Assembly: GCF_004912275.1 (NCBI RefSeq)
Contig: NZ_STGY01000042.1
Span: 30,710 to 94,709, forward strand
Length of the DNA stretch: 64,000 nt
Source of the DNA: Glycomyces buryatensis
GTDB lineage: Bacteria > Actinomycetota > Actinomycetes > Mycobacteriales > Micromonosporaceae
Direction of reading: 5' to 3'
Part shown: in pieces, positions 3,501-64,000 of the stretch
How the letters are laid out: each line of letters opens with the position of its first letter
Position numbering within the stretch: position 1 is the stretch's first letter
Notes under the pieces: generated by a model
What the model was told of the DNA's origin: nothing
Seen by the model: the letters and a program-made list of their open reading frames with translations, nothing else
The model's database searches: none
Program-made: the position numbers and the translations under genes

Positions 3501-4179
3501 TCTGGGCCTTGCGGCGAAAGCATGCCCTCCAAGGAATGACCCGCGGAGCATGCCGAACCGACAGGCGAAGCACACCCTCCACCGAGGGACCGCGAAGCAT
3601 GCCAGACCAAGGCCCGAGGCCCCCCTCGACCGAACCTGCCTGCACACCAGGCGGATACGGAGAGGAGTCCCCTCGGCGGTTGAGCCGAAGGCCACGCGCC
3701 ACACACGCCCGGCCGACACGACCGGGCACCCACAACCGACCACGGCAACCGGAAGGAGGAGAACGACATGACCGACCCGACCTCGACTGCGCCATCCGCC
3801 TGCCCCCACCAATGCAGCCACACGCGCACGCACGCGACCAAGGCCACCAGCATCGGCACCGGCCAGCGCCACACCGCGGGCCGACTCCAGCCGGACACCA
3901 TCCGACCCGGCCACGGCAACGCACCCCGGACCGGCCGGCCGCTCCTCGATCGCTGCGGGCCCGAACCCTCACCGACGGTCAGCCCAGACCCGGCAGGCCA
4001 CCACGACCGGGATTCCCCGTCGCTCCGTCGCTGCGAGCCTGAACCGCAAGGGAAACGCCGTCCGGCCCCGGCGACGCACCCCGGACCGGCCCGCCACCCT
4101 TCCATCGCCGACCGCCCGAACCGCAAGCGGAAGCACGGCCCGGCACGAAATGCCGGACTGGGGTCCGGCCCGGCGCCGG
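3501..4179. other. Gene-poor region with degenerate short repeats
   Basis: No convincing gene. Reading frames on both strands are low-complexity Pro/Arg/Thr/His runs that look like by-products of GC richness. A good Shine-Dalgarno (AAGGAGGAGAACGAC) does precede an ATG at 3768, but the peptide that follows resembles no protein I know. Degenerate copies of a GCGAAGCATGCC-like motif recur every 25-40 bp between about 3515 and 3605. The block CGCACCCCGGACCGGCC occurs twice (about 3929 and 4074). This may be decayed DNA next to the inverted repeat. Confidence 0.5.
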
Positions 4180-4524
4180 TTATTTCGCCGGGAACGTCGC
4201 CGCGGTTGCGAGGCCGCGCCGGGCCCACCGGTCCAGGTCCTCGTCCGCCTCGCATCCCTTGGCGTCCACGGTGATCCACCCGTCGAGGGGGCGGTCGCGC
4301 ATGACCATGGTCGCGGCGCCCGGCTCGGCGAGCAGCGACTCGTGCTCGTCGGGGTCGACGCGGACCATCAGGCCGCCGTGGCCGTGCACCGCGACGGCCA
4401 TATTGCCGTCGTAGAGGAAGGCGAGGCCGCCGAACATGCGCTTCTCGGTCAGGTGATCGGCCAGGTCGGGCGAGTCGGTCAGCAGTGCCCGGATGCGGGC
4501 CGCGAATGCTTCGTCGTATGCCAT
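4180..4524 (-). CDS. TfoX N-terminal domain family protein
   Basis: A 114-residue protein with the TfoX/Sxy N-terminal fold: AYDEAFAARIRALL, then KRMFGGLAFLYDGNMAVAV, LMVRVDPDE and WITVDAKG. Only the N-terminal domain is present, as in many actinobacterial stand-alone members; full TfoX of Gammaproteobacteria is about twice as long. The start at 4524 is supported by the family N-terminus, although the frame is open to 4746. It is convergent with nothing and follows the ESX-type cassette by 35 bp on the same strand. The function of these short proteins is not established; a role in DNA uptake should not be assumed. Confidence 0.9.
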   Translation of the reverse strand: MAYDEAFAARIRALLTDSPDLADHLTEKRMFGGLAFLYDGNMAVAVHGHGGLMVRVDPDEHESLLAEPGAATMVMRDRPLDGWITVDAKGCEADEDLDRWARRGLATAATFPAK

Positions 4525-4559
4525 GCCCCGATACTCGCATCCGGCACCGACCACCGGGG

Positions 4560-4907
4560 TCAGTAGCTGCGGCGCCCCCGCTTCGACGCCTTCTTGCGCT
4601 CGCGTTCGGCGCGTTCCTGGTCGCGCTGGGCGCGAGCGTGTTCGCGTCCGGCGGCGTCCATTTCCTTGAGCTCCCGGGCGAAGCGCTCGGCGTCGTCCTG
4701 CTCCCGGCGTTCGCGCGCCTCGGCGGTCGCCAGTTCCTCCTCCCACGCCCGGCGCGGATCCGGATCCGCAGAACGGCGGCGGTCCGACTCGACCGGCGGA
4801 CGCGGGACCGGCCCCCCTGAGGCGCCGGAGTCGCGGCCGCGGCGCCGGAGGTAGGCCAGGAGCGCCAGTCCGGCGATGCAGGCGAGGATGGCCGCCGTCC
4901 AGATCAC
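4560..4907 (-). CDS. Small single-span membrane protein of the ESX-type cassette
   Basis: A 115-residue protein with one N-terminal membrane segment (residues 2-20, IWTAAILACIAGLALLAYL), a stop-transfer RRRGR and a long charged cytoplasmic tail. Residues about 55-115 are rich in Glu, Arg, Lys and Ala (EEELATAEARERREQDD...ERERKKASKR) and probably form a helix or coiled coil. Its start overlaps the stop of the 340-residue upstream gene by ATGA, so it is the last gene of a four-gene unit. I do not recognise a family. Confidence 0.72.
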   Translation of the reverse strand: MIWTAAILACIAGLALLAYLRRRGRDSGASGGPVPRPPVESDRRRSADPDPRRAWEEELATAEARERREQDDAERFARELKEMDAAGREHARAQRDQERAERERKKASKRGRRSY

Positions 4908-5926
4908 GGGTTGCCTCCCTGCGCCGCGCGGTCCGCGTCCATCTGGTCCTCCAGCTTCAGGCCGTCATTCGTCTCGGTCAGGGTGTACTTCCCGATCTTC
5001 TGGAGGTTGATCGGGTTCCCCCAGTTGTTCTTGAGGGGGTCCCAGGACTTGCGGGTGGCGTCGAAGGACTTCTTCCATATATCCAATGTGGAGTTCATGG
5101 TGGAGGAGCCGGCCTTGGTCAGCGACTTCGACGTGCCCTGCAGCAGTTTGTCCTTGGTGACGTCGAGCGCCTTGCGCAGGCCCTTGGCCTCCGAGGAGAA
5201 CTTGCGGAGCTGCCCGGCCAGGCGGCCCATCTTCGACATCAGCCGCCCGAGCTTGCCGACCATCTTCGCGAACACCGCGACGGCCTTCGAGACGACCCGG
5301 GCGGCGGCCGCCGCCATCGTCGCCCCGAACGTGAAGCCGGCGGTCGCGGCCGCGCTCAGCAGCCACATGATCGCCTCGGCGATGAAGTTGGTGATGATCT
5401 CCAGGAAGATCGAGCGGAGGATCCCCACGGCCACCCCGGCGACATTGATCGCCTCGGCCGTGGACACCGCCTGCTCGGAGGAGGCCCGCAGGACCGCTTC
5501 GAACCCGGTCGCGGCCTCGCGGTAGTTGTCGGCGTCCGCGCCGGTCCAGTCGTCGACGGCGGCGACCTCGGCGGCCCATTCATCGGCCGCGGCGGTCATC
5601 TCCATCGCGATATTGTTCCAGGTCAGCGCCAGCCCGTCGATGGCCTGAGGATTGCCGGCGAGCATGTCGAAGGGTTCGCGCAGGAACCAGACGTGCTCGA
5701 TCAGCCAGCCGAATCCGGCCTGGACGAGGTGCTTGAAGGGGTTGCCGATGAACGAGAGGACGTCGAGCCCGGTGGTCACCGTCGTCGCGGCCGCGTCCAT
5801 GAAGCTGAAGTCGGCGGAGGTGAAGATCGCGCCGTAGGACTCGCCGGTCTTGGCCAGGCCGTGGACGACCTTGGATCCGGCGGTCGGGGCGGTGCTGGTC
5901 GGGTCTGCGATGAGGGGATTGGTCAC
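4904..5926 (-). CDS. WXG100/PPE-like large helical protein, putative ESX (type VII) substrate
   Basis: A 340-residue, mostly helical protein. Residues about 100-165 (ALTWNNIAMEMTAAADEWAAEV...DDWTGADADNYREAATGF) resemble the helix-turn-helix of WXG100/PPE-like substrates, with W-T-G at the turn. Residues about 165-220 are hydrophobic and Ala-rich (VGILRSIFLEIITNFIAEAIMWLLSAAATAGFTFGATMAAAA), as in EspB-like or PPE-like proteins. The last 120 residues are Lys/Ser-rich and amphipathic. There is no signal peptide. It sits directly downstream (ATGA overlap) of an EspC-like gene. A secreted ESX substrate or cargo is likely by context. No EccC ATPase or other secretion core lies in the window. Confidence 0.72.
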   Translation of the reverse strand: MTNPLIADPTSTAPTAGSKVVHGLAKTGESYGAIFTSADFSFMDAAATTVTTGLDVLSFIGNPFKHLVQAGFGWLIEHVWFLREPFDMLAGNPQAIDGLALTWNNIAMEMTAAADEWAAEVAAVDDWTGADADNYREAATGFEAVLRASSEQAVSTAEAINVAGVAVGILRSIFLEIITNFIAEAIMWLLSAAATAGFTFGATMAAAAARVVSKAVAVFAKMVGKLGRLMSKMGRLAGQLRKFSSEAKGLRKALDVTKDKLLQGTSKSLTKAGSSTMNSTLDIWKKSFDATRKSWDPLKNNWGNPINLQKIGKYTLTETNDGLKLEDQMDADRAAQGGNP

Positions 5927-30347: not shown

Positions 30348-31202
30348 TCAGGCGTGCTCGGGCGGCAGCAGCTCGTCATTAGGATAGCCGCCCAGTAGAT
30401 CGTCGGAGGCGGTGAGCGTGAACTCCTCGTCCAGCGCAATGGTGGCGAGATTCGAGGAGGAGGCGACGTCGCCGTCCTCGGACAGCTCCATGAGCATGCC
30501 ACGCACGACCTGCGCCGGCACGCCGGCATCGTCGCCCAGCTCGTTGAGGCTGAGCTCGACCTCCACCGACTTGCCGCCGCCGGGCAGGACGAAGTGGCCC
30601 TCGTCGTCGAAGTCGTACTCGACGCCGCCGACCCTGCGAATGGCGATGGCGGTCAGTTCCTCGAGGTCGCCGCGCTGATCGGCGGCTTCCTCGATCGCCT
30701 CGAGCTTGCCGAAGGCGAGGACGTCGAACGGGTTGATGTACAGCTGCGGGGCCACGAACAGCTGGCCGTCGCGGGTCTCGCCCCGGTACAGGCCCAAGGC
30801 GAGCAGGAATTCGAGCAGGTCGCGGACGGTGTGCGGCACGGGCAGGCCGGCCCGCTCGCAGTGAGTGGTGAAGGTCGCAATGCGCTCGCTCCGTTCGGCG
30901 GTGGCCCGGTCGTACTCCTCGCGGGCCTCCTTCTCGATCACCTCCGCGGAGGTGCCGAAATGGTGCTCGCGGGCCTCGGTGATCCAGTCGTCCACATCGC
31001 CCGGATCGCACCAGACCGGTTCGTTCCACAGGTCGTCGTCGGGGAAGACGTCGGCCCACCAGCTCGCGGGGAACAGACTGAGCGAGGGGACGGTGCGGAA
31101 CAGCTCGATGCTGCACGGCATGATCCGGATCCAGGCGGGGTGCATCTGCGCCTGGACCGGGCCGGTCTCATCGCCGCCGAAGGGCCTTTCGAAAGCTTCC
31201 AC
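30348..31202 (-). CDS. Hypothetical soluble protein (DUF6042-like)
   Basis: A 284-residue acidic protein without membrane segments. It contains PCSIELFRTVPSLSLFPASWWADVFPDDDLW, DRATAERSERIATFTTHCERAGLPVPHTVRDLLEFLLALGLY, and QLYINPFDVLAFGKLEAIEEAA. The C-terminal half may form a winged helix (LNELGDDAGVPAQVVRGMLMELSEDGDVA), so a link to nucleic-acid binding is possible. It resembles uncharacterised actinobacterial proteins I recall as DUF6042; that name is uncertain. It lies upstream of pstB on the same strand, but the PHO-like site between them suggests separate transcription. Confidence 0.75.
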   Translation of the reverse strand: MEAFERPFGGDETGPVQAQMHPAWIRIMPCSIELFRTVPSLSLFPASWWADVFPDDDLWNEPVWCDPGDVDDWITEAREHHFGTSAEVIEKEAREEYDRATAERSERIATFTTHCERAGLPVPHTVRDLLEFLLALGLYRGETRDGQLFVAPQLYINPFDVLAFGKLEAIEEAADQRGDLEELTAIAIRRVGGVEYDFDDEGHFVLPGGGKSVEVELSLNELGDDAGVPAQVVRGMLMELSEDGDVASSSNLATIALDEEFTLTASDDLLGGYPNDELLPPEHA

Positions 31203-54326: not shown

Positions 54327-55358
54327 ATGTCAGCACCAACGCACGGCTCTCCGGCCGCAAGCGGCGGCCCCGGCCTCGGCGACCGCCATGGCCGCACCGC
54401 GACCGACCTTCGGGTGTCGCTGACCGACAAATGCAACCTGCGCTGCACCTACTGCATGCCCGAAGCAGGCCTGTCGTGGCTGCCGAAGCCCGAACTGCTC
54501 ACCGATGACGAGGTGGGCCGCCTCGTCGCCATCGCCGTCCGCGACCTGGGCGTCACCGAGGTCCGCTTCACCGGCGGCGAACCGCTCCTGCGGCCCGGCC
54601 TGGTCGACATCGTCACCGCCGCCGCACAGCTCGAACCCCGGCCCGAGATCTCCCTGACCACCAACGGCATCGGGCTCGAACGCCTCGCCGAGCCCCTCGT
54701 CGAAGCCGGACTCGACCGCGTCAACGTCTCCCTCGACACCCTCAACCCGGACACGTTCATCGCGCTCGCCAAACGCGACCGGCTCGACCAGACCCTGCAC
54801 GGCATCAAGGCCGCCGCCGCGGCCGGCCTCGCCCCGGTCAAACTCAACACCGTCCTCATGCGCGGCGTCAACGACGTCGAAGCCGCCGACCTGCTCCGCT
54901 ACGCCCTCGCGCACGACTACCAGCTGCGGTTCATCGAGCAGATGCCACTCGACGCCGGCGGAGTGTGGCGGCGCGAGAACATGGTCACCGCCGCCGAAAT
55001 CCTCGAAGCCCTCCGCCCCGAATTCGACCTCGTCCCCGACCCGCACCACCGCGGCTCGGCACCCGCCGAAACCTGGCTGGTCGACGGCGGACCCGCGAAA
55101 GTCGGCATCATCGGCTCGGTCACCCGGCCCTTCTGCGGCGACTGCGACCGCACCCGCCTCACGGCCGACGGCCAAGTCCGCAACTGCCTGTTCTCCCGCA
55201 CCGAGACCGACCTGCGCGACCTGGCCCGCTCGGGCGCGAGCGACGCCGAAATCGCCGAACGCTGGCGCGAGGCCATGTGGGGCAAGCTCCCCGGACACGG
55301 CATCGACGACCCCTCGTTCCTCCAGCCGGCCCGACCCATGTCGGCAATCGGAGGCTGA
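54327..55358 (+). CDS. moaA: GTP 3',8-cyclase MoaA
   Basis: A 343-residue radical-SAM enzyme of molybdenum cofactor biosynthesis. The N-terminal [4Fe-4S] motif C-x3-C-x2-C is CNLRCTYC; the C-terminal cluster is CGDCDRTRLTADGQVRNC (C-x2-C-x13-C); it ends in GG (MSAIGG), which is needed in MoaA. The length is typical. The gene is 17 bp after the previous stop. A moaD-like gene follows in an apparent operon. Confidence 0.94.
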   Translation: MSAPTHGSPAASGGPGLGDRHGRTATDLRVSLTDKCNLRCTYCMPEAGLSWLPKPELLTDDEVGRLVAIAVRDLGVTEVRFTGGEPLLRPGLVDIVTAAAQLEPRPEISLTTNGIGLERLAEPLVEAGLDRVNVSLDTLNPDTFIALAKRDRLDQTLHGIKAAAAAGLAPVKLNTVLMRGVNDVEAADLLRYALAHDYQLRFIEQMPLDAGGVWRRENMVTAAEILEALRPEFDLVPDPHHRGSAPAETWLVDGGPAKVGIIGSVTRPFCGDCDRTRLTADGQVRNCLFSRTETDLRDLARSGASDAEIAERWREAMWGKLPGHGIDDPSFLQPARPMSAIGG

Positions 55359-55389
55359 ACGCAGTGCTGACGAATGCGGCGGTGACTTC

Positions 55390-55632
55390 ATGGCGGTGAC
55401 GGTCCGATACTTCGCGGGCGCACGCGCGGCGGCCGGAACGGCCGAAGAAACGGTGAAAGCGGCCGACATCGCCGAACTCAAGTCGGTACTCGCGGCCAAA
55501 CACGGCCCCGGCCTCGACAAGGTCCTGTCCATCTCGACAATCCTGGTCGACGGCCGCGCCGCACGCGAGGGCACGACGGCACTGGCCGACGGAACAACGG
55601 TCGAAGTGCTGCCCCCTTTCGCGGGCGGCTGA
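55390..55632 (+). CDS. MoaD/ThiS-family sulfur carrier protein
   Basis: An 80-residue ubiquitin-like protein ending in the required GG (VEVLPPFAGG). The fold is VTVRYFAGARAAAGTAEETVKAADIAELKSVL, then ISTILVDGRAAREGTTALADGTTVEVLPP. Beside moaA it is probably the molybdopterin synthase small subunit, carrying the C-terminal thiocarboxylate. The moaE partner is not in the window. Confidence 0.9.
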   Translation: MAVTVRYFAGARAAAGTAEETVKAADIAELKSVLAAKHGPGLDKVLSISTILVDGRAAREGTTALADGTTVEVLPPFAGG

Positions 55633-58991: not shown

Positions 58992-59600
58992 TTACGGGCT
59001 CGCAGTCGCCACACCGCCCAAGAGGTCCACCAATCCGGCGGCCGCGTCGTTCAGGCGCCGGTCGTCCTCGTCGGCGTGCCCCACCACGAAGGACCCCTGA
59101 ATGAACACCAGCGCGGTCCGCGCCAGCCGTTCCGGGTCGGCGGCCGGGTCCATCTCGCCGCGCTCGACCGCGAGTGCCAGGATCGCGGCCAGATCGCGTT
59201 CGAGCTCGGCCCAGGCCTCTTGGACCCTTCGCACCGTCGCCGGGTCGTCGGCCAGCTCGACGGCGGCCCTCACCACGAATCCGCCCTCTTTGCTATGTCG
59301 GGCAACGACTTCGAGCAGGTCGGCGACGACTCGGGGCGCGTCCAGTCGCTCGGAGGACGGCCGGTCGAGGGCCCTGCGGGCGATCGCCCGCAGTTCGGGC
59401 TCGGTGTCCTCTCGGTAGCGGGCGAGTGCGGTGATGTAGAGCTGGTGCTTGGAGCCGAAGGCGGAATACAGGCCCGCGCGGTTCATTCCGGTCGCCGCCA
59501 CCAGGTCCGACATGGAGGTCGCGGAGAAACCGCGCTCCAGGAAGACCCGGGTCGCGGCACGGAGCGCTCTGTCCAAATCGGCATTCTTATTTCTACTCAC
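58992..59600 (-). CDS. TetR/AcrR-family transcriptional regulator
   Basis: A 202-residue regulator. The N-terminal HTH is LDRALRAATRVFLERGFSATSMSDLVAATGMNRAGLYSAFGSKHQLYITALARY; the C-terminal ligand domain is helical (LLEVVARHSKEGGFVVRAAVELADDP). It resembles the TetR_C group. It is divergent from the cobalamin riboswitch and operon at 59725 onwards, so it may control the promoter of that operon or itself. The ligand is unknown. Confidence 0.92.
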   Translation of the reverse strand: MSRNKNADLDRALRAATRVFLERGFSATSMSDLVAATGMNRAGLYSAFGSKHQLYITALARYREDTEPELRAIARRALDRPSSERLDAPRVVADLLEVVARHSKEGGFVVRAAVELADDPATVRRVQEAWAELERDLAAILALAVERGEMDPAADPERLARTALVFIQGSFVVGHADEDDRRLNDAAAGLVDLLGGVATASP

Positions 59601-59724: not shown

Positions 59725-59935
59725 CGGGTCCACTCGCCGCGCGACCTGCTTGACACGCTGCGCCACCGGGCAGGACAATGAGCCGAAACTCAATGGCGTC
59801 CTGTGGGGAAAGTCCGGTCGGAAGCCGGCGCTGACCCGCAGCGGTAGTCGCGGTTCGTCTTCGAACACCAATCGAGCACATTACCCTTTGTTACAGCTCG
59901 GTCCACCCGCGTGAGCCCGAATGCCCACCGGCCGC
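59725..59935 (+). ncRNA. Cobalamin (B12) riboswitch
   Basis: Conserved cobalamin-riboswitch core is visible: GGGGAAAGTCCGGTCGG at 59805-59821, a short CCGG pairing, and GCTGACCCGCAGCGGTAG at 59830-59847, matching the family core (GGGAA...CCGG...CTGNCCCGCA...CGGTA). A B12-box-like block AGCCCGAATGCCCACC lies at 59914-59929. The 5' helices are approximate (from about 59725). A hairpin (59962-60001) and the AGGAAAGGTCAGG ribosome site of the next gene follow. It predicts repression of the downstream operon by cobalamin. The exact ends are estimates. Confidence 0.85.
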
Positions 59936-59961
59936 CCGTCTTTATTGTCAACGCCTGTCGT

Positions 59962-60001
59962 GGTCTGCGGGCGCTTGCGGCGCCGCCGCCTGCCCGAGAC
60001 C
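59962..60001 (+). promoter_or_regulatory. Expression-platform hairpin of the riboswitch
   Basis: GGTCTGCGGGC pairs with GCCCGAGACC (one bulged G) across a GC-rich loop that can itself fold (GCGGCGCCGC). It ends 27 bp before the start codon at 60028. It may be a terminator or sequester the ribosome site in the cobalamin-bound state. Confidence 0.6.
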
Positions 60002-60027
60002 CCGCGCGCTTCAGGAAAGGTCAGGCA

Positions 60028-61350
60028 ATGCGCCATCAGCCCAAACGGCGACTGCTCACAGCGGCGGCCGCCGCGGTTCTGCCCATCGCCGTTCTCGGCA
60101 CCGCCGCTGCCCCGGCTCACGCCCAGGACTCCGAGCCGTTCGCCGCCCCGGCGGCGGCCGGTGCGGCCTGGCTCGCCGCCCAGGCGGACGGGCCGTCCTG
60201 GTCCGACGGCGACATCGGCACCTCCCTGGACGCGGTCATCGGCCTCATGGCCGCGCGCGTGGGGACCGACCAGGTCCAGACCACGCTCGAATGGCTCAAT
60301 GACGAGGACGTCCTCTCCTCCTATGTCTACCCTCCGAGCGACGAGTCCGAGGACCCCGCGCTCAATGCGGGCGGCGCCGGGAAGGTCATGTACGTCGTGG
60401 CCACCGCGGGCGGGGACCCGACCGATTTCGGCGGGATCAGGCTCGCCGCCGAGGTGACCGCCGCCCAGACCGAGACGGGCGGCTTCGGCGACGGCAGTGT
60501 CCAGAACACGTCCTGGGCGGTCCTGGGCCTGTCGCGCACCGACCAGGGGGCGAACGCCGAGGCGGGGGCCGCGCTCGCCGCCGCCCAGTGCGATGACGGC
60601 GGCTTCAGCTACGCGGACGTGGACGCCGACGGCGGCGCCGACTGCGTCTCCGACCCCGACACCACCGGCATCGCCGTCGCCGCTCTCGCGGTCTTGGAGG
60701 GCGATGACGTCACCGCCGCGCTCGACGGCGCGGTGATGTGGTTGGAGAACAACCAGTCCGAGAACGGCGGCTTCGACGCCGGATTCGGCGAGAACGCCTC
60801 CTCGACGGCGATGGCCGCGCAGGCGTTCTTTGCGACCGAGCGCTCGGGCGCGGCCGAGCGGGCCACTTCGTTCCTCATCGAACTCCAGCTGGGCTGCGAC
60901 ACCGATGCGGCCGGTGCGTTCATGGCGTCCGACCCCGAGGATCCCGAATACGGGGAGTCCATGCGGCTCTTGGCGACCGCGCAGTCGCTCGTCGCCGTCG
61001 CCGGTCAGAACCTGGCCACGCTCGACGCCTCCGAGTCGACCGCTGACATCCCGGTCCTGGACTGCGAGGGCGGGACCGACGCCGCCAGCCCCGCCGACGA
61101 GGCGGTCTCCTCCGACTCCGATGCGTGGATTCCGTGGGTCATCGTCGCCGCGGCGCTGTTGTTGATCGCGCTCGTCGCCTACCTGATCGTCCGCGCCCGC
61201 CGCGGCGGTGACGGCGGCGCCGAGGGTGCGGCCGAGGGCGGCGCCGCTTCCGATGCCGCGGATGCCGACGAGACTGGCGAGACCGGCGAATCCGAGGACG
61301 GATCCGCTGGCGAGGGCGGCGACGGATCCGACCGGGACCAGCGCGGCTGA
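60028..61350 (+). CDS. Membrane-anchored intrinsic-factor-like alpha/alpha-barrel protein
   Basis: A 440-residue secreted protein. A signal peptide ends about residue 32 (AAAPAHA). Residues 35-340 form an alpha/alpha toroid with repeats ending in GGF (ETGGFGDGS, DDGGFSY, ENGGFDAGF), the fold of terpene cyclases and of the cobalamin-binding domain of animal intrinsic factor. A C-terminal span (IPWVIVAAALLLIALVAYLIV, about 372-392) anchors it with an acidic tail. The ATG at 60028 has AGGAAAGG upstream; the frame is open earlier. A cobalamin riboswitch precedes it and a DUF4430-like protein follows. Inferred role: cell-surface capture of a cobamide. Confidence 0.8.
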   Translation: MRHQPKRRLLTAAAAAVLPIAVLGTAAAPAHAQDSEPFAAPAAAGAAWLAAQADGPSWSDGDIGTSLDAVIGLMAARVGTDQVQTTLEWLNDEDVLSSYVYPPSDESEDPALNAGGAGKVMYVVATAGGDPTDFGGIRLAAEVTAAQTETGGFGDGSVQNTSWAVLGLSRTDQGANAEAGAALAAAQCDDGGFSYADVDADGGADCVSDPDTTGIAVAALAVLEGDDVTAALDGAVMWLENNQSENGGFDAGFGENASSTAMAAQAFFATERSGAAERATSFLIELQLGCDTDAAGAFMASDPEDPEYGESMRLLATAQSLVAVAGQNLATLDASESTADIPVLDCEGGTDAASPADEAVSSDSDAWIPWVIVAAALLLIALVAYLIVRARRGGDGGAEGAAEGGAASDAADADETGETGESEDGSAGEGGDGSDRDQRG

Positions 61351-61949
61351 TGACCGTCAGTCCCTCGCGGACGCTGGCCGGGGCCGGGGCGGCACTCGCC
61401 GTCCTGGCCTCCGTCCTCATTCCGGCCACTCCCGCGGCGGCCCATGGCCACTGCGAGGGCGTGACCGTCGTGGTCGACTTCGGCTCCGTCGCCACCGGCG
61501 CGGACACCGAACCGGCGATCGGCTGCGCCCAGGCACCCGCCGACGGGCTCGATGCGCTCATCGGCGCCGGATTCGACATCACCGAGGTCGCCTCGTTCCC
61601 GGGTATGGTGTGCCGCATCGACGACCTGCCCGAGACCGACTGCGCCGTCGCGCCTCCGGCCGGCGCTTCCTGGGCGTATTGGAGGGCCTCGGCGAGCGAC
61701 ACGAAGTGGACGTTCTCCAGCGTCGGCGCCGCGCAGGCCGAACCGGGCGAGGGCGACCTCGAAGGCTGGGTCTTCGGCGACGGCACCGCCCCGCCCTCGA
61801 TCTCGCCCAGGCAGGCGGCCGCCGCCGACGCCGACCATGTCTCCGATGAGGACGAGGGCGGCTCGCCGACCTGGTTGATCGCCGTCGTCGTCCTCGCCGG
61901 AATCGCCGGGCTGGTCATATGGCGGCTGCGGGCCGGCAAGCACACGTGA
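61350..61949 (+). CDS. Membrane-anchored DUF4430/transcobalamin-like protein
   Basis: A 199-residue secreted protein. A signal peptide ends about residue 31 (ATPAAAHG). Residues 35-150 resemble the DUF4430 beta domain that forms the second part of intrinsic factor and transcobalamin: VTVVVDFGS, GLDALIGAGFDITEV, MVCRIDDLPETDC, WAYWRASASDTKWTFSSVGA. A C-terminal span (about 170-190, PTWLIAVVVLAGIAGLVIWRL) anchors it. It is coupled to the previous gene by TGATG. The two proteins look like a split version of the animal B12 carriers. Confidence 0.75.
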   Translation: MTVSPSRTLAGAGAALAVLASVLIPATPAAAHGHCEGVTVVVDFGSVATGADTEPAIGCAQAPADGLDALIGAGFDITEVASFPGMVCRIDDLPETDCAVAPPAGASWAYWRASASDTKWTFSSVGAAQAEPGEGDLEGWVFGDGTAPPSISPRQAAAADADHVSDEDEGGSPTWLIAVVVLAGIAGLVIWRLRAGKHT

Positions 61950-63130
61950 ACGCGCGCAGCGCCAGAGCGGCCGCTCCGCGGGGGTCCGGCGCGCCGGGTC
62001 GCACCGCGAAAGGCCACGAGGTGAGCGGCCACGGCGCGAACGGGTCCGGTCCGAGGCGGCGCGGCGCGCATCCGGTCGCCTGGTGGGGGTGGGCGCTGCT
62101 GCTCGCCACCGCCGCCAGCCGCACCGGCAATCCGTGGCTGCTGCTCCTCATCGCCGCCGTCGCGGGACTCGTCGTCGTCTTCTGTCGCGGCGACGAGCCG
62201 TGGTCGGGCGCCTATCGGGTGTTCCTCTTCATCGGTTTGAGCGCCATCGCCGTTCGCATGGTCTTCTATGTCGTCTTCGGCGGCTCCGACGGGTCCACAG
62301 TGCTGTTCGCGCTGCCCTCGGTGACGCTCCCGGACTGGGCCGCCGGCTTTCGGCTCGGCGGCGTGGTCACCCTCGAGGGCGCCCTAGCGGCCCTCTACGA
62401 CGGCCTGCGGCTCGCCACGCTCCTGGTGTGCGTCGGCGCCGCCAATGCCCTGGCGAGCCCGCGCCGACTGCTGCGATCGGTCCCGGCCGCGCTGTACGAG
62501 GTGAGCGTCGCGGTCGTCGTCGCCCTCTCGGTCGCCCCCCAGCTGGTGCAGGGCGTCGCCCGTATCCGCAGGGCGCGCGCCCTGCGCGGCAACACCAGAC
62601 GCAATCCCGCCGACCTCATGCGCACGGTCGTCGCCCCCGTCCTGCACGACGCGCTCGACCGGTCGCTCGCGCTCGCCGCCGCGATGGCCTCGCGCGGCTA
62701 CGGCCGATCCGCCGGAATCCCGGCGCCCGCCCGGCGCACGACCTCCGCGTTCCTCCTCATCGGACTGCTGGGGTTGTGCGCGGGCGCGTACGCCTCCCTG
62801 TCCTCGGTCATCCCCTCGCCCCTCGCCTGGGGCCTCCTCGCCGCCGGCGCGGCCGCCGCGACCTGCGGTATCGCCTTCGCCTCCAAGCGCGTCCCGCACA
62901 CCCGCTACCGCCCGGACGCCTTCGGTTCCCGCGACTGGGCGATCCTCGCGTCCGGTGCGGCCGCCGTCGCCGGAACCGTCCTCTCAGGATATTTCGAATT
63001 CGGGTTGCTGTGGCCGGCAACGAATCCGCCCCAGGTGCCGCCGCTGCCCCTGGCCGCCACGTGCGGGGTGCTCCTCGCCGCCGCACCGGCCATGCTGGTA
63101 CCCACGCAGACCAAGGAGGGCCCCGCATGA
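61946..63130 (+). CDS. ECF transporter transmembrane protein EcfT (CbiQ family)
   Basis: A 394-residue integral membrane protein, the T component of an ECF-type importer. It has about eight spans, with the two Arg/Ala coupling stretches visible: ALASPRRLLRSVPAALYEVSVAVVVALSVAPQLV and RIRRARALRGNT...MASRGYGRS. The GTG start at 61946 overlaps the previous stop. The basic N-terminus of about 40 residues is unusual. It couples the ATPases to a substrate-binding S component, which must lie beyond the window or elsewhere. Confidence 0.9.
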   Translation: MNARSARAAAPRGSGAPGRTAKGHEVSGHGANGSGPRRRGAHPVAWWGWALLLATAASRTGNPWLLLLIAAVAGLVVVFCRGDEPWSGAYRVFLFIGLSAIAVRMVFYVVFGGSDGSTVLFALPSVTLPDWAAGFRLGGVVTLEGALAALYDGLRLATLLVCVGAANALASPRRLLRSVPAALYEVSVAVVVALSVAPQLVQGVARIRRARALRGNTRRNPADLMRTVVAPVLHDALDRSLALAAAMASRGYGRSAGIPAPARRTTSAFLLIGLLGLCAGAYASLSSVIPSPLAWGLLAAGAAAATCGIAFASKRVPHTRYRPDAFGSRDWAILASGAAAVAGTVLSGYFEFGLLWPATNPPQVPPLPLAATCGVLLAAAPAMLVPTQTKEGPA

Positions 63131-64000
63131 TCCACTTCGCCGACGTGACGTTCGGCTACGATGCCCACCCGGTCCTCGACGGCGTCTCCTTCGACATTCC
63201 CGAAGGCGAGTTCTGCCTGCTTGTCGGCACGACCGGCGCGGGGAAATCGACGCTGCTCCAGTCGATCAACGGCCTCGTCCCGCGCTTCACCGGCGGCACC
63301 ATGGCCGGCGACATCCACGTCAACGGGCGCAGCGTGCGCGGCGCCGCACCGGCCGACCTGGCCGACATCGTCGGCTACGTCGCCCAAGACCCCCTGGCGG
63401 GCTTCGTCACCGACGACGTCGAACTCGAACTCGCCTACACCGCTGAACAACTCGGCCTCGCACCCGCCGTGATGCGCAAGCGCGTCACCGAGATCGTCGA
63501 CCTCCTCGGCCTCGCCGACGTACGCGGCCGCACCCTGGCCGCGCTCTCCTCCGGCCAGCGCCAGCGGGTCGCGATCGGCGCGGCCCTGGTCGCGGGGCCG
63601 TCGGCGCTGGTGCTGGACGAGCCGACGTCGGCCCTCGATCCCGGTGCGGCCGATGAGGTGCTGTCGGCGCTGCACCGTCTCGTCCATGATCTGGGGGTGA
63701 CGGTGCTGCTCGCCGAGCACCGGCTGGAGCGGGTGGCGCAGTATGCGGATTCGGCGCTGCTCCTGCACGGCGGCAAGGTGATGGCCGGTTCGGTCGGGGA
63801 GGTGTTGGCGGTGAGTCCGGTGGCGCCTCCGGTGGTGCGGCTCGGGAAGGTCGCGGGCTGGGCGGGGCCGCCGGTGACGATCCGCGAGGCCCGTCGTCAT
63901 GCGGCGCCGCTGCGGGCGGCCCTCGCCGTGGAGTCGGTGCCGTCGGATGCCGCGGCCGCGGTCGGTCCGGCACTGCTGTGGACGGACGCCTTGACCGTCG
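63127..64000 (+). CDS. ECF transporter ATP-binding protein EcfA (partial)
   Basis: An ABC ATPase that continues beyond the window end. The first about 290 residues carry Walker A LVGTTGAGKSTLLQS (34-41 core), the Q loop IVGYVAQDPLAGFVTDDVELELAY, signature LSSGQRQRVAIG and Walker B ALVLDEPTSALDPG followed by the His switch LAEHRLERV. It is coupled by ATGA to EcfT. It may be a fusion with a second ATPase half, as in many actinobacterial ECF transporters; the end is not visible. Confidence 0.9.
   Translation, partial: MIHFADVTFGYDAHPVLDGVSFDIPEGEFCLLVGTTGAGKSTLLQSINGLVPRFTGGTMAGDIHVNGRSVRGAAPADLADIVGYVAQDPLAGFVTDDVELELAYTAEQLGLAPAVMRKRVTEIVDLLGLADVRGRTLAALSSGQRQRVAIGAALVAGPSALVLDEPTSALDPGAADEVLSALHRLVHDLGVTVLLAEHRLERVAQYADSALLLHGGKVMAGSVGEVLAVSPVAPPVVRLGKVAGWAGPPVTIREARRHAAPLRAALAVESVPSDAAAAVGPALLWTDALTV

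Follow-up and report, generated by a model that had tools for sequence, protein, structure and literature searches.

The window analysed here is the 64,000-nucleotide stretch of the genome of the actinomycete Glycomyces buryatensis that spans positions 30,710 to 94,709 of contig NZ_STGY01000042.1. At its downstream end, a match to the cobalamin riboswitch aptamer is followed by five overlapping genes, which encode, in this order, an alpha/alpha-toroid protein, a beta-domain protein, the coupling protein EcfT, the fused double ATPase EcfAA', and the S component of an energy-coupling factor (ECF) transporter (Table 1). This 60028 operon, named after the start of its first gene, is very probably a riboswitch-controlled operon for the uptake of cobamides (the vitamin B12 family), in which a clasp made of the first two proteins would be combined with ECF-type import.

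Table 1. Features of the 60028 operon and its surroundings (window positions unless a locus is named).
Feature	Position	Strand	Length	Remarks
Cobalamin riboswitch aptamer, operon leader	59750..59946	+		RF00174, cmscan 32.5 bits (gathering 31.5)
Alpha/alpha-toroid protein, SCO2321-like	60028..61350	+	440 residues	Predicted exported and membrane-anchored; predicted N-terminal clasp half
Transcobalamin-like beta-domain protein, SCO2322-like	61350..61949	+	199 residues	Predicted exported and membrane-anchored; predicted C-terminal clasp half
EcfT-like transmembrane coupling protein (CbiQ family)	61946..63130	+		PF02361 E 3.6e-10, over cut-off; GTG start
EcfAA' fused double ATPase, first part	63127..64000	+		Continues 731 nucleotides beyond the window; PF00005 in two stretches, E 4.4e-47
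ECF S component	L004:5428-6234		268 residues	Directly after EcfAA', just beyond the window; PF12822 E 4e-5, below cut-off
TetR-family regulator	58992-59600	-		Divergent, adjoins the operon
MoaA-like and ThiS-family genes	54327-55632	+		PF06463, PF04055 (MoaA-like)

The operon and its transporter

The original prediction had described four overlapping genes behind the riboswitch. All four are present, but the account is extended by the fifth gene, and the ATPase proves to be a single fused 534-residue chain with two ATP-binding cassette (ABC) stretches. A look beyond position 64000 for an S component had been proposed as a check; one was found there directly after the ATPase gene, so that the ECF transporter is complete: EcfT matches its family over the cut-off, both ABC stretches are recognized, and the S component matches its own family below the cut-off. 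A Pfam search of the S component gave no CbiM match, and no sequence match was found in the copy of the PDB searched. The protein is 44-79% identical across 13 homologues, and the four best matches among the best 80 of 523 relatives are Glycomyces loci with 79-84% identity.

The RF00174 match (E 0.00017) is the sole one at gathering scores within the 64-kb window. Two other riboswitches occur in the genome of G. buryatensis, one before a MetE-like gene and one before CbtA-, CobD-, and CobQ-like genes (names assigned by eye). On the other side of the leader, the operon adjoins the divergent gene of a TetR-family regulator, and further upstream the window holds genes of two kinds known from the synthesis of the molybdenum cofactor, MoaA-like and ThiS-family.

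The alpha and beta proteins

Hydrophobic stretches lie near both ends of the 60028 protein (residues 9-27 and 370-388) and of the 61350 protein (residues 9-27 and 175-193). Both proteins are therefore predicted from their sequences to be exported and held at the membrane by C-terminal helices. The claim that the two halves of the predicted clasp are separate and individually anchored agrees with these sequences, each half having a gene of its own and a hydrophobic stretch near either end. In the 60028 protein, the membrane helix is followed by a long acidic, glycine-rich tail (residues ~389-440), presumably on the cytoplasmic side.

By sequence, the 60028 protein is a distant relative of the NCBIfam family SCO2321_fam (NF053823; 65.6 bits, below the cut-off of 300), with weak matches to PF13243 and PF00432 that also remain below the cut-off. 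No match to the Cobalamin_bind family (PF01122) was obtained at E values up to 1, and PDB searches with the single proteins P0001 (the 60028 protein) and P0005 gave spurious or empty results. The N-terminal alpha/alpha toroid is assigned through homology to the alpha part of a modelled natural alpha-beta fusion, which matches the alpha profile at E 2e-53. An alpha/alpha toroid also forms the N-terminal domain of transcobalamin, as stated in the main text of Burroughs et al. 2007 (PMC1796856).

The 61350 protein scored 38.9 bits against SCO2322_fam (NF040672), below the cut-off of 85, and no family, DUF4430 (PF14478) included, was matched in a Pfam search; nor was any DUF4430 domain detected in the G. 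buryatensis genome at E 0.001. The beta-domain part (window positions 61437-61820) was modelled with AlphaFold from 47 sequences, with a mean predicted local distance difference test score (pLDDT) of 87.8 and a predicted TM-score (pTM) of 0.84. In a Foldseek search of this model against 350,542 PDB chains, ranks 1-17 were taken by transcobalamin, intrinsic factor, or 3u7z (probability up to 1.00), followed by a Ras-binding domain at rank 18 (probability 0.30) and haptocorrin at rank 19. The entry 3u7z is a bacterial protein whose PDB title reads putative metal binding protein. The model thus points to a beta domain of the transcobalamin type in the 61350 protein, while PDB searches with beta-family sequences and profiles returned nothing credible and did not find the B12 carriers. 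The description of this protein as DUF4430-like stands only in part: Pfam does not recognize it, but a relation is seen in the structure and, less clearly, by profile-profile comparison (hhalign of the beta profile with 20 canonical DUF4430 domains, E 2e-4 at a probability of only 46.6).

A joint function of the two proteins is supported by their fusion in nature. At locus L103, from a metagenome-assembled genome (MAG) of Nocardioidaceae, alpha and beta domains form a single open frame of 585 residues (3538-5292) in the order of intrinsic factor, directly upstream of EcfT. L102 (2779-5208) has an alpha-transmembrane-beta fusion adjoining EcfT, beta-alpha fusions occur at L128 and L142, and Crossiella (L106) together with 12 Streptomycetaceae loci has a single open frame in which a beta domain precedes two or three alpha domains. 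The alpha-beta fusion model (468 residues, 46 sequences) reached a pLDDT of 83.9 and a pTM of 0.75; the alpha rows of its alignment stop before the last toroid helices, which rest on the two fusion rows L103 and L102. In Foldseek, transcobalamins held ranks 1-6 (best E 2e-9, over 470-485 alignment columns including gaps), squalene-hopene cyclase came at rank 7, and intrinsic factor at rank 10. The proposed structural likeness to the two domains of intrinsic factor therefore gains support from two models, that of the window's own beta domain and that of the fusion homologue, the carriers being the best matches by E value.

Within the beta family, two domain orders were distinguished. In SCO2322-type proteins, the 14 rows of which (among them L037, L041, L061, and L083) were chosen by eye out of the 46 beta rows of alignment A2, the two halves stand in the opposite order to the window type. 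Crosswise comparison of half-profiles between the two types gave scores of 96.2 (E 2.2e-9) and 99.0 (E 4e-18), against 0.1 and 0.3 for the uncrossed pairs. In agreement with this, residues 108-184 of the 61350 protein (P0002) match positions 9-82 of the SCO2322 model. By these sequence comparisons, the beta domain of SCO2322-type members is circularly permuted relative to that of the window type; 6 of the 14 permuted rows adjoin alpha proteins above the SCO2321 cut-off.

Distribution, riboswitch linkage, and substrate

An alpha homologue was detected in 34 of 61 relatives, among them every one of the 22 genomes of the genus (own genome counted), and 15 of 197 genomes of the class contain members that score above the SCO2321 cut-off. 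Starting from the S component, the best 80 of 523 confirmed relatives in named genomes, with genera that include Streptomyces, Amycolatopsis, Lentzea, Nocardioides, and Janibacter, yielded 62 loci whose upstream sequence was long enough for gene content to be read. EcfT and EcfAA' were present in all 62, the beta gene in 60, the alpha gene in 50, and all four together in 50.

Several arrangements depart from this pattern. Nine loci (L101, L105, L122, L124, L125, L138, L145, L146, and L163) combine S, EcfT, and EcfAA' with no alpha gene recognized anywhere in the stretch; there the alpha protein either lies elsewhere in the genome or has diverged beyond detection. Alpha-beta pairs without adjoining transporter genes are found at L073 and L075, and L076 holds a second pair; these pairs are preceded by separate riboswitch matches. 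At L072 (G024:C1:669000-686000), ~12 kb accommodate two alpha and two beta genes together with five riboswitch matches. In genome G147 (C1:3656980-3659127), a weak alpha homologue is followed ~1 kb further on by a Pfam DUF4430 match, while a SCO2321_fam member lies elsewhere; here a DUF4430-type copy perhaps exists beside the permuted type. Finally, at L168, which comes from a different class within the phylum, a DUF4430 protein directly precedes EcfT- and EcfA-like frames (identified by eye); this locus may link the actinobacterial two-chain branch with the branch described earlier from other bacteria.

The scan for RF00174 covered the 34 relatives with an alpha homologue and another 53 genomes taken from the class search. 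A same-strand match lies upstream of 37 of the 43 alpha matches in relatives (all that were found; three of the six unlinked rows are short fragments), at a median distance of 124 nucleotides (range 81-210). The same holds for 47 of 56 alpha matches from the class search, with a median of 177 nucleotides (60-583); this set comprises the best rows among the matches listed, with several neighbouring pieces of single genes merged by hand. The 53 genomes are those of 100 class-search genomes, with alpha matches down to ~77 bits, that had not already been scanned. Stricter filters were applied to them, so that weak matches were lost, and only potentially nearby riboswitch rows were used, any omitted row being able only to raise the count. 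Since a same-strand riboswitch match within 600 nucleotides upstream is expected by chance for about 1.4e-4 of genes (a crude estimate), the linkage goes beyond chance, and the conserved linkage with the riboswitch that had been proposed as a check is seen among the homologues.

The metabolism of the hosts bears on the substrate. CbiC is needed for corrin synthesis, and B12-binding domains are also carried by some proteins that do not use cobalamin. In 58 genomes selected for an alpha homologue (the 53 above plus G000, G033, G034, G025, and G038; the whole cassette was checked in 20 loci rather than in each genome), CbiC was found in 20 and not found in 38, or found in 20 of 49 when only good-quality genomes are counted. 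A B12-binding domain was detected in all 58, over the cut-off in 57. Among the 38 genomes without CbiC, the riboswitch before the alpha homologue is the sole RF00174 match found in 26, and 28 lack a strong match to a FecCD/BtuC-type permease (10 with none, 18 with a weak one; both counts were compiled by hand from search listings). With strong FecCD matches in only 10, many of these organisms seem unable to run BtuFCD, a reading to be taken with caution as several are incomplete MAGs. The persistence of B12-binding domains where CbiC is missing makes a cobamide a better substrate than cobalt.

Import of cobalt (or nickel) for cobamide synthesis, with the alpha and beta products as accessory metal-binding proteins, is accordingly judged very improbable and was rejected as the main role. 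It would suit the assignment of EcfT to the CbiQ family, the title of the structural neighbour 3u7z, and the control of cobalt importers, too, by cobalamin riboswitches (PMC3766115). Against it stand the missing CbiM match of the S component, the little corrin synthesis there would be to feed in genomes without CbiC, and a beta domain that models as that of a B12 carrier. Moreover, the G. buryatensis genome carries CbiM at another site, and together with the riboswitch before the CbtA-, CobD-, and CobQ-like genes this suggests that cobalt import is otherwise provided for. B12 or another corrinoid is thus the stronger reading of the substrate and cobalt the weaker one. It had been considered that homologues might be tied to other substrates; they are instead tied to cobalamin riboswitches and kept in genomes without CbiC.

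Which corrinoid is carried is less clear-cut. One alternative is that cobinamide or some other incomplete or degraded corrinoid, or else a cobamide precursor, is imported in place of complete B12; it overlaps with the cobamide reading and is considered unlikely, though far from negligible. Known B12 importers take cobinamide as well (PMC6593275), and G. buryatensis itself has CbiC and genes resembling those of cobamide synthesis (by eye). The retention of the alpha homologue in genomes without CbiC is compatible with any corrinoid, but not with the lower-ligand base alone.

Uptake model and relation to known systems

Several results weigh against an operon for cobamide uptake. The riboswitch match exceeds its gathering cut-off by only 1 bit, the 301-nucleotide leader folded no better than its shuffles (z -0.06), and no RF00174 match was found near the five genes of the relative G033 (L069) or near the SCO2321_fam members above the cut-off in G077, G169, and G097. 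No alpha gene was recognized upstream on the same strand in 12 of the 62 loci. Strong FecCD permeases are present in 10 genomes without CbiC, and among the 18 weak matches 7 reach the Pfam cut-off over part of the model. On the structural side, the Foldseek E values of the beta model are weak, the best being 0.017 and none as low as 0.001, and DUF4430 matches only 1 of 46 beta homologues, at E 0.013. As a whole chain, the fusion model superimposes on the B12 carriers with TM-scores of just 0.35-0.40 and a root-mean-square deviation of about 22, so that the arrangement of its domains differs from that of the ligand-bound carriers and their mutual placing is not supported by the model; by TM-score, the cyclase 8pak (0.48, toroid only) even surpasses transcobalamin. 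Likewise, PF01122 matches only 3 of 49 alpha homologues (best E 0.0016), no B12 carrier appears among the 60 PDB matches listed for the alpha profile built from these 49, and the nearest protein by sequence is squalene-hopene cyclase (E 1e-43).

This last match, together with the SQHop_cyclase_C and Prenyltrans domains detected in 43 and 39 of the 49 alpha members (E up to 0.1), would fit a terpene-cyclase-like enzyme whose link to a B12-controlled transporter is incidental or lipid-related. Such a role was rejected and ranks as the most improbable of the explanations considered: the alpha protein is predicted to be exported, it accompanies beta and transporter genes in 50 of 62 loci and is naturally fused to beta domains, and the best structural matches of the fusion by E value are transcobalamins, whose own N-terminal domain has the same toroid fold.

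Riboswitches of the RF00174 family allow the expression of an operon when coenzyme B12 is short. In the cobamide-uptake model, scarcity of the coenzyme would permit expression of the 60028 operon and plenty would repress it. The alpha-toroid and beta-domain proteins, once exported, would stay tethered to the membrane by their predicted C-terminal helices and, as the structure models and natural fusions suggest, would close on the cobamide from two sides like the domains of transcobalamin and intrinsic factor. The cobamide would then be passed from the pair to the adjacent S component, with EcfT and EcfAA' driving import with ATP. In G. buryatensis, which has CbiC, the system would serve salvage; in many relatives without CbiC, it may be a vitamin importer on which the cell depends. 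ECF transporters are not generally known to use an extracellular substrate-binding protein. A wider proposal, with slightly better than even prospects, is that in actinomycetes an ECF transporter is served outside the cell by a binding device equivalent to intrinsic factor but made of two membrane-tethered chains, the chains assembling around the vitamin and docking on S, with the beta domain permuted in the SCO2322 type and extra alpha and beta copies on one chain in Streptomycetaceae.

BtuG/BtuFCD and BtuM also acquire B12, but belong to other protein families and transporter classes. The animal carriers intrinsic factor, transcobalamin, and haptocorrin share with the present proteins the combination of an alpha/alpha toroid and a beta domain, are secreted as well, and are the best structural matches by E value of the modelled beta domain and of the fusion. 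They differ in that the bacterial halves are mostly two separate chains, each with a predicted membrane anchor, whose genes share an operon with those of an ECF transporter, and no carrier was retrieved through PDB sequence profiles among the matches listed. The distant SCO2321 and SCO2322 families, the names of which give no function, have cut-offs that the window proteins do not reach, and the beta proteins beside such members are circularly permuted. ECF-CbrT is likewise an ECF importer for B12, as reported in PMC5997447 and PMC6593275; in contrast, the S component described here has no PDB sequence match, and two dedicated extracellular proteins accompany the transporter.

The idea of B12 scavenging by transcobalamin-like bacterial proteins is not new in kind. 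According to PMC1796856, the transcobalamin-like SLBB proteins that occur in low-GC Gram-positives, planctomycetes, and euryarchaea comprise a beta domain with or without a toroid, are secreted, and are generally encoded in operons with CbiO and CbiQ, in hosts that usually lack key enzymes of B12 synthesis; scavenging of B12 or its precursors was proposed. The central claim of the original prediction, intrinsic-factor-like capture of B12 coupled to ECF import in a bacterium, is thus supported by riboswitch, structure, and gene linkage, but its general idea dates from 2007. That set differs from the present one: Pfam DUF4430 misses the 61350 protein, the single mention of actinobacteria in the main text concerns ComEA, and 'Streptomyces', 'riboswitch', and 'permut' are absent from it. 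A literature search of the titles and beginnings of abstracts listed, with most subscription papers outside its scope, found no description of this cassette and nothing relevant on SCO2321-SCO2325; a Streptomyces griseus riboswitch study concerns a different gene (PMC8914203). Within this scope, the two-chain branch of actinobacteria, which Pfam does not recognize, its riboswitch linkage, the dedicated S component, and the permuted beta domain seem to be undescribed.

The 60028 operon provides a predicted B12 importer for many actinomycetes: of the 58 genomes sampled for an alpha homologue, CbiC was not found in 38, and 28 of these have no strong match to a BtuC-type permease. It suggests that an ECF transporter can be served by extracellular binding proteins of its own, and it proposes a role for the SCO2321 and SCO2322 families. 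Lastly, it contributes an actinobacterial branch to the discussion on the origin of the animal B12 carriers.

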